Source: Flavobacteriaceae bacterium
GTDB taxonomy: Bacteria; Bacteroidota; Bacteroidia; Flavobacteriales; Flavobacteriaceae
NCBI GenBank assembly: GCA_030726725.1
Contig: JANRDC010000015.1
Span: forward strand, 1 to 64,000
Direction of reading: 5' to 3'
DNA: 64,000 nt
Positions 41,245 to 49,833 of the stretch are shown in pieces (position 1 is the stretch's first letter; the number at the start of each line of letters is the position of its first letter). The notes below the pieces were generated by a model. That model was not told the origin of the DNA. It searched no databases and saw only the letters and a program-made list of their open reading frames with translations. Position numbers and translations under genes: made by a program.

Positions 41245-42924
41245 CTATTTCGTTTTCGTGATTTGGGTAGAAAACACCGATTGGTTTCCCACTTGATCCG
41301 TCACTTCAAGTCGAATTTCATATACACCTGGAGCGTCCACTAAATGGTCTGCATCATAGGTGAGTTGTGCTTTTTTAGGTTCGTAAGCCAGCAACATCCA
41401 TTTTCCGTTGATCGTACCTCTATATGACTGAATACCGCTGCCCACGTCACTGATCTTAAAAGTCAGGAAATTGAAAAAAGGTAACTTTTGTTGGCGCACA
41501 AAGTTTTTAGGTTGGATACTCGGGGGTATCGAATCAAATCCGACTTGATAATGGCCCAAAATTTTTGTCCACGTGGAAAGTTCATTGTCTTTTCTAGTGG
41601 TAGGGACAAAAACACGCCCTCCTTTTTCTGTGATGCGCATCAATGCGGCAAATGGTTTTCTGTGCTCGGGTATCGAATCCATTGACTGGCGTATTCCGAT
41701 AGATTTTGCCATAGGAATCTGTGGTTTTCCGATCAGTATTCCCGATTTTTTCTCAGCGACCAACAGTGCTGTTTTTTCAAAAAACGCATGCTGCGGAATA
41801 TTGATCTGCCAATTTCCTGATTGGTATTGCCAGGGTTGATCCGGTAGGATGGTCACTTGACCTTGTGGTGCAGTTGCATCCGACCAAGGGGGTGAGATGC
41901 CTCGATCAGCCACGGTGCCCAAAACAGGAATTTTGCCGTGAGTCGTATTTCCGTTCAGGTCCCAAACCTCCAAATGAAGGGTGTCTCGCTGATTGATAGC
42001 CAGGGTAAACCAACCCTGTTTTTGGTCGTCAGGGGCAAATAACCACCTGACCATAGTTCTGTTTTTTTGGTACTGGGGATAGTCGATGAGGTAGTTAAAT
42101 TTTGCGTCATCGCTAAACGAAAATCTTTGGTGTGTTTTTTCATACAGCACTTGATCTCCGAGTTTTACCCGATAACCGTAAATGCCATTTCTGTTTGCAG
42201 CGCCATCTTGTCTGTCAAATCCAGCAACACCTAGGGCAGATGGCCCACTGATGCGCACTTCAGAAGCAATCCAAGATCCTTGCTGGGGAAGTTGCATGGG
42301 GATTTGCCGCTTCTTGATTTGATCTAGATTTTTCCAGGGTTCATAGAGCCATAGCTGTTGGATCATTGGGGGTGTTTGATCGTTGATCCGAATTCCTTGC
42401 GCTGCTGGATTTAAAGGATCAGCGCTTGGTGTATCCCGGATTTCAAAATGCAGGTGAGGAGCTGCAGAACTTCCCGTATTGCCGCTGAGCCCGATGAGCA
42501 TTCCCTGGGTGACGGGCAGCTGTTCAGGTGTTAGAAAACGCTCAATTTTATAAGACTCAGCCTCGTATTGCTCTTTTTTTACAAAGGTTTCTATGGTGCC
42601 TGAAAATTTTTGTAGATGTGCATAAACAGTGGTGGTTTGGTTGGGGTGGGTGATATAGATCACCTTTCCATATCCCCAAGGACTCACCTTGATTCTCGAA
42701 ACATAACCATCGGCAACAGATCGAATTGGAATACCTTCCCTCTGTTGGGTTTTGAGGTCTAAACCGGCGTGAAAGTGATTGTTTCTCAACTCTGCAAAAT
42801 TACCCGCCAATACCAGGGGAATATCCATGGGCGGAAGCAAAGTATCGTTTAAAGTCTGCGTGGCTTTTGCGTAAGTCGCTAGGTGGATTACTCCAAGCCA
42901 CAGTAATAATAGAGGTAGGCGCAT
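41245..42924 (-). CDS. Secreted M23-family (LytM) peptidase
   Basis: The 559-aa protein has a signal peptide (MRLPLLLLWLGVIHLATYAK) and a LytM domain (about 45-180). Its zinc ligands are in NNHFHAGLDLK (HxxxD) and HLHFEIRD (HxH), with SGNTGSSAAPHLHF between. The long C-terminal part (about 190-559) is strand-rich, with FDRQDGAANRNGIYGY and an Ig-like end VYEIRLEVTDQVGNQSVF. It probably cleaves peptidoglycan cross-links in the periplasm. The longest frame starts at 42993, but ATG 42924 gives the signal peptide. Confidence 0.88.
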   Translation of the reverse strand: MRLPLLLLWLGVIHLATYAKATQTLNDTLLPPMDIPLVLAGNFAELRNNHFHAGLDLKTQQREGIPIRSVADGYVSRIKVSPWGYGKVIYITHPNQTTTVYAHLQKFSGTIETFVKKEQYEAESYKIERFLTPEQLPVTQGMLIGLSGNTGSSAAPHLHFEIRDTPSADPLNPAAQGIRINDQTPPMIQQLWLYEPWKNLDQIKKRQIPMQLPQQGSWIASEVRISGPSALGVAGFDRQDGAANRNGIYGYRVKLGDQVLYEKTHQRFSFSDDAKFNYLIDYPQYQKNRTMVRWLFAPDDQKQGWFTLAINQRDTLHLEVWDLNGNTTHGKIPVLGTVADRGISPPWSDATAPQGQVTILPDQPWQYQSGNWQINIPQHAFFEKTALLVAEKKSGILIGKPQIPMAKSIGIRQSMDSIPEHRKPFAALMRITEKGGRVFVPTTRKDNELSTWTKILGHYQVGFDSIPPSIQPKNFVRQQKLPFFNFLTFKISDVGSGIQSYRGTINGKWMLLAYEPKKAQLTYDADHLVDAPGVYEIRLEVTDQVGNQSVFSTQITKTK

Positions 42925-42974
42925 ATTGCATAAAATTATAAAAGAAGAATGACACTTTTTTGCCGTTAAATGAT

Positions 42975-42982
42975 TAATTTTG
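42975..42982 (+). promoter_or_regulatory. -7 box of ZapB-like/zapA unit
   Basis: TAATTTTG lies after the ATG at 42970 that opens the longest frame, so translation should start downstream at ATG 43006. Confidence 0.6.
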
Positions 42983-43005
42983 TAAATAAGCATGTTGTTT
43001 GCGAA

Positions 43006-43296
43006 ATGAGTGAAATGATCGCCATCGTTGCAGGTTTAGAGCAAAAAGTACAGCAATTGTTGGACAGAAACCACCAGTTAAGGGCATCAGTGGCCACCTT
43101 AAGCGCTAGTAATTCAAGCCTTCAGGACAAACTGGAAGAAAGCCAACGGCAACAATCGCATCTTGAGCATCAAGTTCAAGCGCTTCAAATGGCACACAGC
43201 GTGCTCGGCAGTGATCAAAACACGACCGATGCCAAACAGAAAATGAACACCCTAATCATAGAGCTGGACCGATGCATCGGTGCGCTCTCAGTGTAG
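43006..43296 (+). CDS. ZapB-like coiled-coil protein upstream of zapA
   Basis: From ATG 43006 the protein is 96 aa. Residues about 5-70 form a continuous heptad-rich coiled coil (IAIVAGLEQKVQQLLDRNHQ, then LQDKLEESQRQQSHLEHQVQ), and the tail KQKMNTLIIELDRCIGALS is conserved in style among proteins preceding zapA in Bacteroidota. By size, coiled coil and position it resembles ZapB, the partner of ZapA at the division septum. There is no firm family motif, so ZapB is an inference. Two bases separate its stop from the zapA ATG. Confidence 0.75.
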   Translation: MSEMIAIVAGLEQKVQQLLDRNHQLRASVATLSASNSSLQDKLEESQRQQSHLEHQVQALQMAHSVLGSDQNTTDAKQKMNTLIIELDRCIGALSV

Positions 43297-43298
43297 TA

Positions 43299-43589
43299 AT
43301 GTCGGAGAAATTAAAAATAAAAATCTCCATAGCCGATCGGGTATATCCGCTCACCATCGATCCCAGACAGGAAGAAGGTTTGCGCAAAGCCGCTAAGCAA
43401 ATAGAGCTGATGACAAAAAGCTTTGAACAAAACTACGCCGTGCGAGACAAACAAGATGTATTGGCCATGTGTGCCTTGCATTTTGCCTCTAAAGTCGAAC
43501 AAAAAGTTTTGAACGATTCCTCCGAATCCAAAGAACTTGCTGAACGATTAACACGATTGGATGACCTCATTGCTGAAGCTATCGGCTAA
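43299..43589 (+). CDS. zapA: Cell division protein ZapA
   Basis: The 96-aa protein starts MSEKLKIKISIADRVYPLTI and continues GLRKAAKQIELMTKSFEQNY, the FtsZ-binding head and helix of ZapA. It promotes bundling of FtsZ protofilaments. The longest frame begins at 43272 inside the upstream gene; ATG 43299 matches family starts. It is coupled to the ZapB-like gene and followed by the candidate 6S RNA. Confidence 0.92.
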   Translation: MSEKLKIKISIADRVYPLTIDPRQEEGLRKAAKQIELMTKSFEQNYAVRDKQDVLAMCALHFASKVEQKVLNDSSESKELAERLTRLDDLIAEAIG

Positions 43590-43604
43590 AACGTTCTTTA
43601 TCAA

Positions 43605-43775
43605 GATTCTGCCCACATTGGTCAATTTTTGACAAACTCAACACGAATGAATTCGAGGGGGTAAGTCAGTATCCTAGAGCATGCCTTCACGTCAAGGAAA
43701 CTCGCATATACTGTTAGCCTTAAACCTGTTTTTTGGAGTTTGTACAAACCCCAACCAGTGTGGGTTTTTTATTTT
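43605..43775 (+). ncRNA. ssrS: Candidate 6S RNA (ssrS-like)
   Basis: The 204 bases between zapA and rny can fold as one long rod. The closing stem is CCCACATTGG (43612-43621) with CCAGTGTGGG (43755-43764), 10 pairs, followed by TTTTTT. A second stem pairs TTGACAAACTC (43629-43639) with GAGTTTGTACAA (43736-43747) with one bulge. A central bubble follows (about 43640-43659 against 43727-43735). The apical arm has CAGTAT (43667-43672) with ATACTG (43708-43713), then GAG/CTC, then CCTT/AAGG with a 6-base loop. Stem, central bubble and apical arm are the hallmarks of 6S RNA, which binds RNA polymerase. Position after zapA matches the gene order in many bacteria. No -7 box precedes it, so it may be cut from the zapA transcript. 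Confidence 0.78.
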
Positions 43776-43793
43776 AATTTAAACAGACAAACA

Positions 43794-45359
43794 ATGGAAA
43801 TAACCCCGTGGATCATCGGTGCAATTATGTCAATCCTTGGATTTGGTGCTGCCAAAGTCATGGAAAAAGGCAAGGCATCGAAAACCATAGCCAGCGCTAG
43901 AAAAGAGGCCTTGGACATCATCAAAAACGCTAAGGTTGAAGCTGAAAACATCAAGAAAGACAAAATTTTTCAAGCGAAAGAAAAGTTTTTAGAGCTCAAG
44001 GCTGAGCACGAACAACACATCGTACAGAAAGACAAGAAAATTGCTGAAGCTGAGAAACGCACCAGAGACAAGGAATCTCAGGTCAGTTCAGAGTTGGCCC
44101 AGAACAAGAAACTGTCCGATCAATTGGAGCGTCAGCTGCAAGAGGTAGCGCAAAAGTCTGAGTTGTTGGACAAAAAACAAGCTGAGGTTGATCGACTGCA
44201 CAAGAATCAAGTACAACAACTCGAAGTGATTTCAGGGCTATCGGCCCATGACGCTAAAGAGCAATTGATGACCACCCTGAAGGAGGAGGCCAAAACAGGT
44301 GCTATGGCCTACATGCAAACGGCTATGGAAGAGGCTAAGCTCACCGCGCAACAAGAAGCCAAAAAGATTGTCATCAATACGATTCAACGTATTGGTACAG
44401 AAGAGGCGGTTGAGAATTGCGTCTCAGTTTTTAATTTGGAATCTGACGATGTAAAAGGTAGAATTATCGGTAGAGAAGGGCGAAATATACGCGCTATTGA
44501 GGCTGCAACAGGTGTTGAAATTATTGTAGATGATACGCCAGATGCGATCATTCTATCTTGCTTTGATTCGGTGCGCAGAGAGATTGCGCGACTATCACTA
44601 CATCGATTGGTGACGGATGGTAGGATACACCCAGCCCGAATCGAAGAGATCGTCAAAAAGACTGAAAAACAGATCGAAGAGGAGATTGCTGAGGTGGGCA
44701 AGAGAACAGTCATTGATTTAGGTATTCACGGTTTGCACCCTGAATTGATCAAGGCAGTTGGCCGAATGAAGTACCGATCTTCTTATGGTCAAAACTTGCT
44801 ACAACACTCCAGAGAAGTAGCTAAGTTGTGCGGTGTGATGGCTGCTGAGTTGGGCATCAATGCCAAATTGGCCAAACGCGCGGGATTGCTACACGATATT
44901 GGAAAGGTTCCTCACAGTGAGGCCGACGCAGAAACACCTCACGCGATACTAGGGATGCAGTGGGCAGAAAAATACGGGGAAAAACCGGATGTCTGCAACG
45001 CGATAGGCGCTCACCATGACGAGATAGAAATGAAGACGCTGATCGCACCTATTGTTCAGGTTTGTGATGCGATTAGCGGTGCGCGTCCAGGTGCGCGAAG
45101 ACAAGTATTGGATTCCTATATCCAAAGACTTAAGGATTTGGAAGATATCGCTTTTGGGTTTAAAGGAGTACAGAAAGCGTATGCTATTCAAGCGGGTAGA
45201 GAATTGCGCGTGATCGTTGAAAGCGAGAAAGTAACCGACGAACAAGCCATGGAAATGTCCTTTGAAATATCTCAAAAAATTCAAACAGACATGACTTATC
45301 CAGGACAAGTAAAAGTTACTGTTATTCGCGAAACCCGCGCAGTAAATGTAGCTAAGTAA
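43794..45359 (+). CDS. rny: Ribonuclease Y
   Basis: The 521-aa endoribonuclease starts mRNA decay. An N-terminal TM segment ([20 protein letters not shown]) anchors it to the inner membrane, followed by a long charged coiled coil (about 30-200). The KH domain has [20 protein letters not shown] and the HD domain [23 protein letters not shown] at 43740 would lengthen the frame but lies inside the RNA structure at 43605-43775; ATG 43794 gives the family length. No promoter is seen between that RNA and rny, so read-through is likely. Confidence 0.95.
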
Positions 45360-47188: not shown

Positions 47189-47941
47189 TTACTGGGGCTT
47201 TTTTGTCCAAATACGCCAAGCTTCTTCAGCTTGTTCCACCAACATTTGATAGCCATTAAGGGCTTGAGCACCTTGATTTAACCCAGCTTTCATAAATGCA
47301 GTGACTTCTGGATTGTAGATCAAATCAAACAGTAAATGTCGGTCAGCGAGACATCCATAAGGCAAATCTGGTTTCTGATCTACGTGGGGAAAAGTACCCA
47401 CCGGACTACACTGAATGATCAGATGATGTTCGTCTACAACGCCTTGATCGACATCTTTATATGAAATTTGATCTATTTTTGGTGTGCGCGATACCCATAG
47501 ATAGGGAATATTCAATTGATCGAGTACGAAGGCGACGGCTTTGGACGCACCACCCGTTCCTAAAATAAGCGCTTTTTTGTGGTGGGGCTTCAGGTGGGGT
47601 TGGAGGGCTTTCTCAAATCCCACTACATCGGTGTTGTATCCAATGAGTCGATCTCCTTCGCGAGCGATGGTATTCACCGCTTGGATTTCCGCTGCTGGGC
47701 CCCGAAGTTCATCAATCCACTGGATCACCTCTGTTTTGTAGGGGATGGTTACATTCAAGCCTTTAATTGAAGGTTGCTCATCCAGCATGATTTTTAGCGT
47801 CAAGAGATCAGGTAGGTCGAAATTCTCATAACTGTGATCCAACAGTCCAGAGGATTCAAATTTTTGAGCGAAATATCCTCTAGAAAATGAATAAGCTATA
47901 TTTCTGCCCAGAAGGCCAAATCTATTTTTTTTGAGCTCCAT
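47189..47941 (-). CDS. aroE: Shikimate dehydrogenase
   Basis: AroE reduces 3-dehydroshikimate with NADPH, one step before AroK. The 250-aa protein has the shikimate-binding FGLLGRNIAYSFSRGYF (Ser pair), catalytic Lys in GLNVTIPYKTEVIQWIDEL, NTDVVGFEKAL, and the nucleotide loop ILGTGGASKAVAFVL. It ends NGYQMLVEQAEEAWRIW. It is short but within range for Bacteroidota. Its start overlaps the DUF368 gene by 20 bp, placing it last in TPR-DUF368-DUF368-aroE. Confidence 0.94.
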   Translation of the reverse strand: MELKKNRFGLLGRNIAYSFSRGYFAQKFESSGLLDHSYENFDLPDLLTLKIMLDEQPSIKGLNVTIPYKTEVIQWIDELRGPAAEIQAVNTIAREGDRLIGYNTDVVGFEKALQPHLKPHHKKALILGTGGASKAVAFVLDQLNIPYLWVSRTPKIDQISYKDVDQGVVDEHHLIIQCSPVGTFPHVDQKPDLPYGCLADRHLLFDLIYNPEVTAFMKAGLNQGAQALNGYQMLVEQAEEAWRIWTKKPQ

Positions 47942-48932
47942 AGCGTTCTAGAAATACGAGTAATGCTATTCCCGATAGAATAAAAACCAAAGCCCAAATA
48001 TTTTGCGGCTCGTTTATCTGAGGAATATAGCGGGTAAATTGAATGACGATGGGTTCTGCATGACTGTCTGTGACTAATTGGCCAGTTGCATCGTATAAAT
48101 AGTTCGCTTTTTTCCACGGCCAAACCACTCCGAGGGAACCTGTGATGAAACCAATGATGGAGGCTGTGGTCTGATCGTGATAGCGTTTGAGCAAAAAACC
48201 GATGAAGTGGGACAGTGTGATGAGTCCGACTACCGATCCTAGGGTAAAAATACCCAGAGTCAATAAAGCGGATAGTCTGGCTGGATTATCGATAAATCCA
48301 AAGTTGAGTACCGCAATTTCTGTGAGGGTATCGAATAATGCATTGACAGATTCAACGAGTAAAAGGACATAGTTGCCCATAAGCATCAATATAAACGAGC
48401 CTGAAAGGCCGGGTAACGTCATACCCGAAACACTGATCATACCGCAGAAGAATACGAACAGCCAATGATCGTTTTCCTGAGCCGGGCTGAGAAAACTTAT
48501 GCCCACCCCCAAGATAAGCCCCAAAAGTCCAAAACTTCGATTTTTGCTGTTCCATCCGCCAAAACCTTTGGAAATGTAATACACAGATCCAATGATCAAA
48601 CCAAAAAAAACAGACCAGACGTAGAGCTCTCTAGTTTTGAGGAAATAGTCGAGAATTTTGGAGATGCTGAAATAGCTAAACACCATGCCCATGACCAAGA
48701 AACCCAAAAAAACAAAGTCGGTATGTTCTTTAAATTCTTTGAATTTTCCGCGCATCAACAGAGAAAATGCGCGAGCGTCCATTTTTTTTAATGAAGAGAT
48801 AAAACGTTCGTAAAAACCCCAAACAAAAGCGACAATTCCGCCGGATACTCCAGGAACCTTATTGGCCGCACCCATGGTTAAGCCCTTGATAAAAGTCAGA
48901 AGATTTGATTTCAGATCAGCGGGTTCTTTCAT
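47922..48932 (-). CDS. DUF368 membrane protein (PopT-type polyprenyl-phosphate translocase), copy 1
   Basis: The 336-aa protein has about ten TM segments. The DUF368 signature is KGLTMGAANKVPGVSGGIVA (about 14-33), with a second SVSGMTLPGLSGSFILMLMG (about 158-177). DUF368 proteins such as PopT have been reported to return undecaprenyl phosphate across the inner membrane for cell-wall synthesis. This copy has a longer cytoplasmic loop after TM1 (KKMDARAFSLLMRGKFKEFK) than its neighbour. It begins one base after the second copy ends, so this looks like an old tandem duplication. Confidence 0.88.
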   Translation of the reverse strand: MKEPADLKSNLLTFIKGLTMGAANKVPGVSGGIVAFVWGFYERFISSLKKMDARAFSLLMRGKFKEFKEHTDFVFLGFLVMGMVFSYFSISKILDYFLKTRELYVWSVFFGLIIGSVYYISKGFGGWNSKNRSFGLLGLILGVGISFLSPAQENDHWLFVFFCGMISVSGMTLPGLSGSFILMLMGNYVLLLVESVNALFDTLTEIAVLNFGFIDNPARLSALLTLGIFTLGSVVGLITLSHFIGFLLKRYHDQTTASIIGFITGSLGVVWPWKKANYLYDATGQLVTDSHAEPIVIQFTRYIPQINEPQNIWALVFILSGIALLVFLERYGAQKK

Positions 48933-48933
48933 T

Positions 48934-49833
48934 TTAATGAGCTGCTGGCTTTTGGGCCCAGCGCTCCAACCCTAAAATTAAGAAAATACCTGCGAACATC
49001 AAGCAGATTGCTGGAACCCATTGGCTCTGCATGGGAAAATTCCAAGGAGCAACTACATCAATCGCTTGATCAGTAGGGTATTTCCAGGGCCAAATTTTAG
49101 GCAAAGCGCCCAACATAAATCCAACCAACACAGCTAGCGTTTGGTGCTGGTATCGCGACAGCATCCATTTGAGCAATGAAGAAAAGGACAGTAGTCCGGT
49201 GATGGCGCCGAGTCCCACCACGCTGACGACAGCTAGGTCCCTTTCGTGCACTCCGGTCAACACAGTGGCATAGCTGCCTAAGAGCACCAATATAAATGCA
49301 CCTGAAATTCCAGGTAAGATCATGGCAATGCTGGCCAAGGCACCAGAAATGAATAAGTAAGTCAGCGAGCTATTTGCAGCGCCCTCGGGCAAAAAATTAA
49401 TGCTGCCTGCGATCAGCGTCCCCAAAATAAGCCAAAGATATAGTCCCTTTTTCCACTGACCGATCGATCGGTAAATATGCCAACAGCTGGCCAACATCAA
49501 ACCGAAAAAAAAGGACCAAACCAAAATAGGTTTGTTCGACAATAGCCAGCTAATTCCTTGGGCGAGCGAGGCGATACTCAGGCCTATACCGCTGACTAAA
49601 GCAAGTAAAAACGAGGCGTTAGACGCTTTCCAAAAGGCCTTCAACCCTTGATTTTTGAGCACCAACAGCAGGCTAGGACGGAGTTTTGAAATGGTTTCAA
49701 CGAGTTCTTGATATATTCCTGAGATAAATGCGATGGTGCCCCCCGATACGCCAGGAACAACATCTGCTGCACCCATGGCCATACCTTTAAGGACAATCCA
49801 CAGGTAGTCTGATGATTTTCTTTTGTTTTCCAT
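48934..49833 (-). CDS. DUF368 membrane protein (PopT-type), copy 2
   Basis: The 299-aa protein has about nine or ten TM segments. The signature KGMAMGAADVVPGVSGGTIA (about 13-32) parallels copy 1, as does the second repeat IAMILPGISGAFILVLLGSY. The two copies have clearly diverged, so they may differ in substrate, polarity or conditions of use, for example pH or sodium. It lies seven bases after the TPR gene stop in the same transcription unit. Confidence 0.88.
   Translation of the reverse strand: MENKRKSSDYLWIVLKGMAMGAADVVPGVSGGTIAFISGIYQELVETISKLRPSLLLVLKNQGLKAFWKASNASFLLALVSGIGLSIASLAQGISWLLSNKPILVWSFFFGLMLASCWHIYRSIGQWKKGLYLWLILGTLIAGSINFLPEGAANSSLTYLFISGALASIAMILPGISGAFILVLLGSYATVLTGVHERDLAVVSVVGLGAITGLLSFSSLLKWMLSRYQHQTLAVLVGFMLGALPKIWPWKYPTDQAIDVVAPWNFPMQSQWVPAICLMFAGIFLILGLERWAQKPAAH

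Follow-up and report, generated by a model that had tools for sequence, protein, structure and literature searches.

A boxA-like element heads the 6S RNA gene behind zapA in a Flavobacteriaceae genome and across the class Bacteroidia

We find that the 6S RNA gene between zapA and rny (RNase Y) of a Flavobacteriaceae bacterium is headed by a motif matching the boxA of ribosomal RNA (rRNA) leaders, and that across the class Bacteroidia 6S is almost always headed in this way. The RNA itself belongs to a known family; what is new is the boxA in front of it. The DNA analysed, henceforth the window, is a stretch of 64,000 nucleotides (contig JANRDC010000015.1), to which all coordinates refer. We favour, with a probability of roughly 0.7, a reading in which the genome's single 6S gene is part of a zapB-zapA-6S-rny operon, boxA recruits NusB and S10 where translation ends and the 6S RNA is cut out of the transcript. 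An earlier note, made from the letters of the window, had proposed a 6S-like RNA at 43605-43775; this part stood, whereas the boxA upstream and the operon arrangement had escaped it.

The 6S RNA gene and its neighbourhood

The locus lies on the forward strand and comprises a zapB-like coiled-coil gene (43006-43296), zapA (43299-43589; Pfam ZapA, E 7.4e-18), the RNA and rny (43794-45359; Pfam RNase_Y_N, E 1.3e-32, with HD and KH_1). The match of the first gene to Pfam ZapB is weak (26.5 bits, below the cut-off of 31.5), and the gene is syntenic in relatives; its longest frame opens at 42970, and we placed the start downstream of the predicted promoter described below. The order zapB-zapA-6S-rny is kept through Flavobacteriaceae and in many other families of the class, which bears out the remark in the earlier note that a place after zapA is shared with 6S genes elsewhere. 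Among 80 RNase Y loci from named genomes, 79 have zapA, a gap of about 200-350 nt and rny, and the remaining sequence (L079) begins about 170 nt before rny, too short to show zapA. The small host genome (1.73 Mb in 31 contigs) is placed by its RNase Y in Flavobacteriaceae near Sediminicola and Zeaxanthinibacter, and it encodes NusB (PF01029, E 3.9e-21). Elsewhere in the window, two adjacent membrane-protein frames on the reverse strand (47922-48932 and 48934-49833) share the N-terminal pattern KG-MGAA-VPGVSGG and look like tandem paralogues.

A search with the Rfam 6S models, the check that the earlier note had proposed, yielded an end-to-end match of 6S-Flavo (RF01685) to 43636-43741 with 77.8 bits (E 3.5e-13, 801 bases searched), and it is the only RF01685 match in the whole genome. 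Since this score is just below the curated cut-off of 85 bits, a standard Rfam annotation run misses the gene. Genomes of the same family score 75-83 bits, also below 85, so that the cut-off seems too strict and the match not a poor one. The general 6S model (RF00013) gave no match at the locus. Our own covariance model, whose training set includes this locus, spans 43594-43772 with 146.7 bits; its antisense hits were discarded as a palindromic echo of the stems.

The RNA core runs from closing stem to closing stem (43611-43765, forward strand). The closing stem pairs G43611-G43621 with C43755-U43765 in 11 pairs, the outermost a G-U, and the second stem pairs U43628-C43639 with G43736-A43748 in 12 pairs, with A43744 bulged; the earlier note had drawn them by eye with 10 and 11 pairs. 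The central bubble, apical arm and T run that it described are likewise present. The 5' strand of the bubble, presumed from 6S biology to be the side that templates the product RNA (pRNA), lies at approximately 43640-43660. The T run directly follows the closing stem, such that 43755-43771 reads also as an intrinsic terminator, in a layout found in relatives too, and the mature RNA probably extends as far as the T run, for a length of about 160 nt. The predicted folding energy of the stretch is -50.9 kcal/mol (z -2.96), a stability equalled by none of 200 shuffles and weaker on the antisense strand (z -1.63). The interval is non-coding, as had been claimed: the rny ATG is at 43794, and only the longest rny frame reaches back into the RNA, through a TTG at 43740.

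Alignment with relatives, which had also been suggested, shows that the pairing is maintained by compensatory changes. In 41 loci, nearly all from Flavobacteriaceae plus near relatives, the consensus structure holds 40 pairs after one lone pair was dropped, and standard pairs fill 97.3% of the pair cells. Two-sided changes occur in 26 of the 40 pairs (187 cells), a level reached by none of 500 shuffles, and pairing falls to 42-50% when the partner is slid by one base. The closing stem alone shows compensatory change at 7 of its 11 pairs, for example CCTACATTAGT/ACTAATGTAGG against CCTGTATTAGT/ACTAATACAGG, CCCACATTGGT/ACCAATGTGGG and others.

In Flavobacterium psychrophilum, 6S RNA has been detected as a stand-alone RNA (PMC9723704), and in Bacteroides thetaiotaomicron both 6S RNA and its product RNAs were seen (PMC7366714). 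Given the RF01685 match, the covariation of the stems and the detection of 6S RNA in relatives, with the conserved zapA-linked position alongside, we regard 43611-43765 as a genuine 6S RNA gene, an identification that is secure at the sequence level. A structured RNA directly preceding rny and ending in a terminator-like stem could also be a leader or attenuator of rny. We hold this to be very improbable in view of the RF01685 match, the occurrence of the same RNA away from rny in other genomes and the independent RNA of F. psychrophilum.

The boxA-like motif and its distribution

The sequence CGTTCTTTA (43592-43600, forward strand) is separated by 2 nt from the zapA stop and by 10 nt from the closing stem downstream. 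In relatives, (A)CGTTC[T/A]TT with an A-rich stretch behind it stands at the start of nearly all gaps, the motif lying between -15 and +14 nt of the zapA stop and sometimes overlapping it. In rRNA leaders of the class, GTTC[A/T]TTGA or a close variant is found about 85-180 nt ahead of 16S, where boxA is expected, and we read these elements as boxA. The motif after zapA matches these leader elements and is thus a predicted boxA. The 31 contigs of the host genome contain no 16S rRNA gene, and the comparison rests on the rRNA leaders of other genomes; one of these (G215) has ACGTTCTTTGAA both in its rRNA leader (L237) and before 6S (L205).

The resemblance was also scored blind, with a matrix built from 17 rRNA-leader boxA elements only and run over about 480 nt per locus. 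Of 129 loci with 6S, 118 had their best match at the zapA stop, compared with about 8 expected; among 43 loci lacking 6S, 2 did. We considered whether CGTTCTTTA is a general motif of the genome and rejected this, as its 15 copies genome-wide compare with 29 for the reversed control. We also asked whether T or A at motif position 5 tracks the rRNA boxA of the same genome. It does so in G134 and Aquimarina latercula; most Flavobacteriaceae do not fit, having mostly A in rRNA and mostly T before 6S, and this co-variation was therefore left out of the evidence. A motif so constant in position, between the zapA stop and the start of 6S and next to the gene of a ribonuclease, might instead be an RNase processing site that releases 6S from the zapBA mRNA without binding NusB/S10. 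Its resemblance to rRNA-leader boxA, and not to an unrelated signal, makes this an unlikely account.

For a census, RNase Y loci across Bacteroidia were chosen without reference to 6S and scored with our own covariance model. zapA is upstream of rny in all census loci examined but one (L214), and the zapA-rny gap is long in some families and too short for 6S in others. Among 36 loci with 6S, 34 have boxA, whereas among 43 short gaps a single one (L183) does, chance being 1.5% per search window; Fisher's test returns p 1e-14, a value that ignores the relatedness of the loci and so overstates their independence. The 6S-positive loci outside Flavobacteriaceae represent 11 families. Six further long gaps have boxA with a weak or no 6S score, and one (L150) has neither. 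A wider count across the class found the motif in 125 of 126 zapA-6S-rny loci, a figure that counts three genomes twice, includes six loci with weak 6S scores only and leaves out two loci of family f2 (L136 and L137).

In short-gap genomes, 11 relocated 6S genes were found at E < 1e-7, with GTTCTTT just upstream in 5 and absent in 6. Since boxA separates 34 of 36 from 1 of 43 loci in the census and stays with 5 of the 11 relocated genes, it accompanies 6S and not zapA or rny. It is not indispensable, as the other 6 relocated genes and the f2 loci indicate: at L136/L006 and L137 no boxA is recognisable, though 6S follows zapA there. The f2 rRNA leader carries GATCATTGA, and boxA itself may therefore have changed in this family.

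Several loci depart from the common layout. L183, with a zapA-rny gap of 143 nt, keeps GTTCTTTA at the zapA stop in a gap seemingly too short for 6S, perhaps with a remnant or shortened RNA. In family f34 (L010/L135, L139, L141, L142 and L148), a small hairpin between boxA and the closing stem lengthens the spacer. Four loci from other classes of the phylum (L271, L272, L273 and L275) show the zapA-6S-rny order but lack GTTCTT downstream of zapA; directly behind the zapA stop they have in common a TTACATTGAAAGTAGA-like string, ending GAGAGTGA in L273, that is possibly a divergent boxA.

Transcription unit and predicted action of boxA

The housekeeping sigma factor of Bacteroidota recognises a -7 element of the form TAnnTTTG (PMC7366714). 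The sole match in 42601-43800 is TAATTTTG (42975-42982, forward strand), the predicted sigma-A -7 element of the zapB-zapA-6S operon. Such an element directly precedes zapB in 78 of 79 Flavobacteriaceae loci, at a distance of about 616-639 nt from boxA, and is almost never found nearer 6S. A dedicated 6S promoter was sought between zapA and 6S and not found, no conserved TAnnTTTG being present there in a search limited to promoters of this type. The spacing from motif to closing stem, as compared across loci, ranges from 16 nt (window) to 40 nt. Because the only conserved TAnnTTTG is upstream of zapB and this spacing is variable, we infer that 6S forms the last, untranslated part of the zapBA transcript.

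The same data bear on whether GTTCTTTA is a DNA element of a 6S-specific promoter, such as a -33-like box, rather than an RNA boxA. The distance from motif to closing stem is 22-26 nt in most Flavobacteriaceae, which would roughly suit an upstream promoter box. A promoter would, however, not tolerate a variation of 16 to 40 nt, and no conserved TAnnTTTG partner lies between motif and 6S. Moreover, the motif matches rRNA-leader boxA, itself inside transcripts, and in four relocated copies (L217, L222, L224 and L225) a -7 element with one mismatch is upstream of the motif. A promoter box is thus improbable.

Between the 6S terminator and the rny start (43765-43793), the window holds no sigma-A promoter for rny, and rny therefore probably relies on polymerase reading through that terminator. 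This dependence would also suit a boxA that serves rny, by antitermination through the 6S terminator, and not 6S. We judge such a role quite unlikely, since boxA precedes rny in only 1 of 43 loci when 6S is absent and stays with 6S in 5 genomes where 6S is away from rny.

In rRNA operons, boxA binds NusB-S10 and prevents Rho termination on untranslated RNA. It also tethers the leader, which allows the long-range helix between leader and trailer to form; in Enterobacteriaceae the helix strand lies 18-19 nt from boxA (PMC10250234, PMC4807359). The 6S locus has a parallel layout: after the end of translation come boxA, a short spacer and the 5' strand of a helix, with the pairing strand transcribed about 150 nt later. 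We propose the same service for 6S. Transcription would start at the sigma-A promoter upstream of zapB, and boxA would mark the end of translation after zapA. NusB and S10 would bind boxA on the nascent RNA, as on pre-rRNA, so that Rho does not terminate transcription while polymerase crosses the untranslated 6S, and the complex may hold the 5' strand of the closing stem close to polymerase until the 3' strand has been made. Transcription would then stop at the closing stem and U run or continue into rny, and 6S would be cut out of the zapBA operon transcript. NusB/S10 binding, antitermination, processing and read-through into rny are what we infer from this arrangement; against the mechanism, the need for antitermination is less obvious for 6S than for rRNA, 6S being short.

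6S RNA imitates an open promoter and holds the housekeeping RNA polymerase until a short product RNA is copied from it. By analogy, the 6S RNA of this locus would sequester polymerase in this way and be freed by a product RNA copied from its bubble. More tentatively, and at somewhat less than even odds, Bacteroidia as a class may make 6S through an rRNA-type boxA with NusB and S10 from the end of a cell-division operon, its synthesis being tied to the factors that drive rRNA, free S10 included, and to RNase Y expression through read-through.

Relation to known systems

boxA goes unmentioned in Rfam 6S-Flavo and in passages of the main text of Weinberg et al. 2010 (PMC2864571), as it does in the B. 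thetaiotaomicron 6S paper (PMC7366714). The literature searched, largely without subscription papers, did not bring boxA, 6S RNA and antitermination together, an absence that is not proof. Papers containing both boxA and 6S RNA did so incidentally (an author name; a ParB boxA) and were set aside.

If the proposed reading is true, a conserved boxA before 6S, an RNA that sets global transcription by growth state, links it to the machinery of rRNA transcription, and gives NusB an identified small-RNA client in a phylum that is prominent in the environment and in the gut. To our knowledge, little is known of how 6S synthesis is controlled outside Proteobacteria. boxA would also account for 6S staying attached to zapA. 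In practical terms, a boxA, a closing stem and a T run between zapA and rny provide a rule for finding 6S genes below Rfam cut-offs.

E. coli 6S consists of two long stems around a central bubble. Its gene, ssrS (RF00013), is directly downstream of zapA like the window 6S; unlike it, ssrS is followed by fau and not rny, RF00013 is silent at this locus, and a boxA, looked for in the zapA-ssrS gap of 42 nt, is absent where the window gap has one. The window RNA shares with 6S-Flavo (RF01685; Weinberg et al. 2010, PMC2864571) the conserved core sequence and the apical arm. The RF01685 consensus, however, leaves the outer stems unpaired (including ACUC with GGAGU) and omits the closing stem, both of which covary in relatives. 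Bacteroidales-1 (RF01693), the Bacteroides 6S RNA of the same phylum, matches weakly here at 14.1 bits (E 8.4), which is not significant. The boxA of rRNA operons (PMC10250234, PMC4807359) has the core GTTC[T/A]TT followed by A or G, as does the 6S motif, and precedes at fixed spacing the 5' strand of the leader-trailer helix, much as the 6S boxA precedes the closing stem. Unlike rRNA boxA, the 6S boxA, a predicted NusB site, stands in an operon of protein-coding genes, at whose end it precedes a small regulatory RNA.
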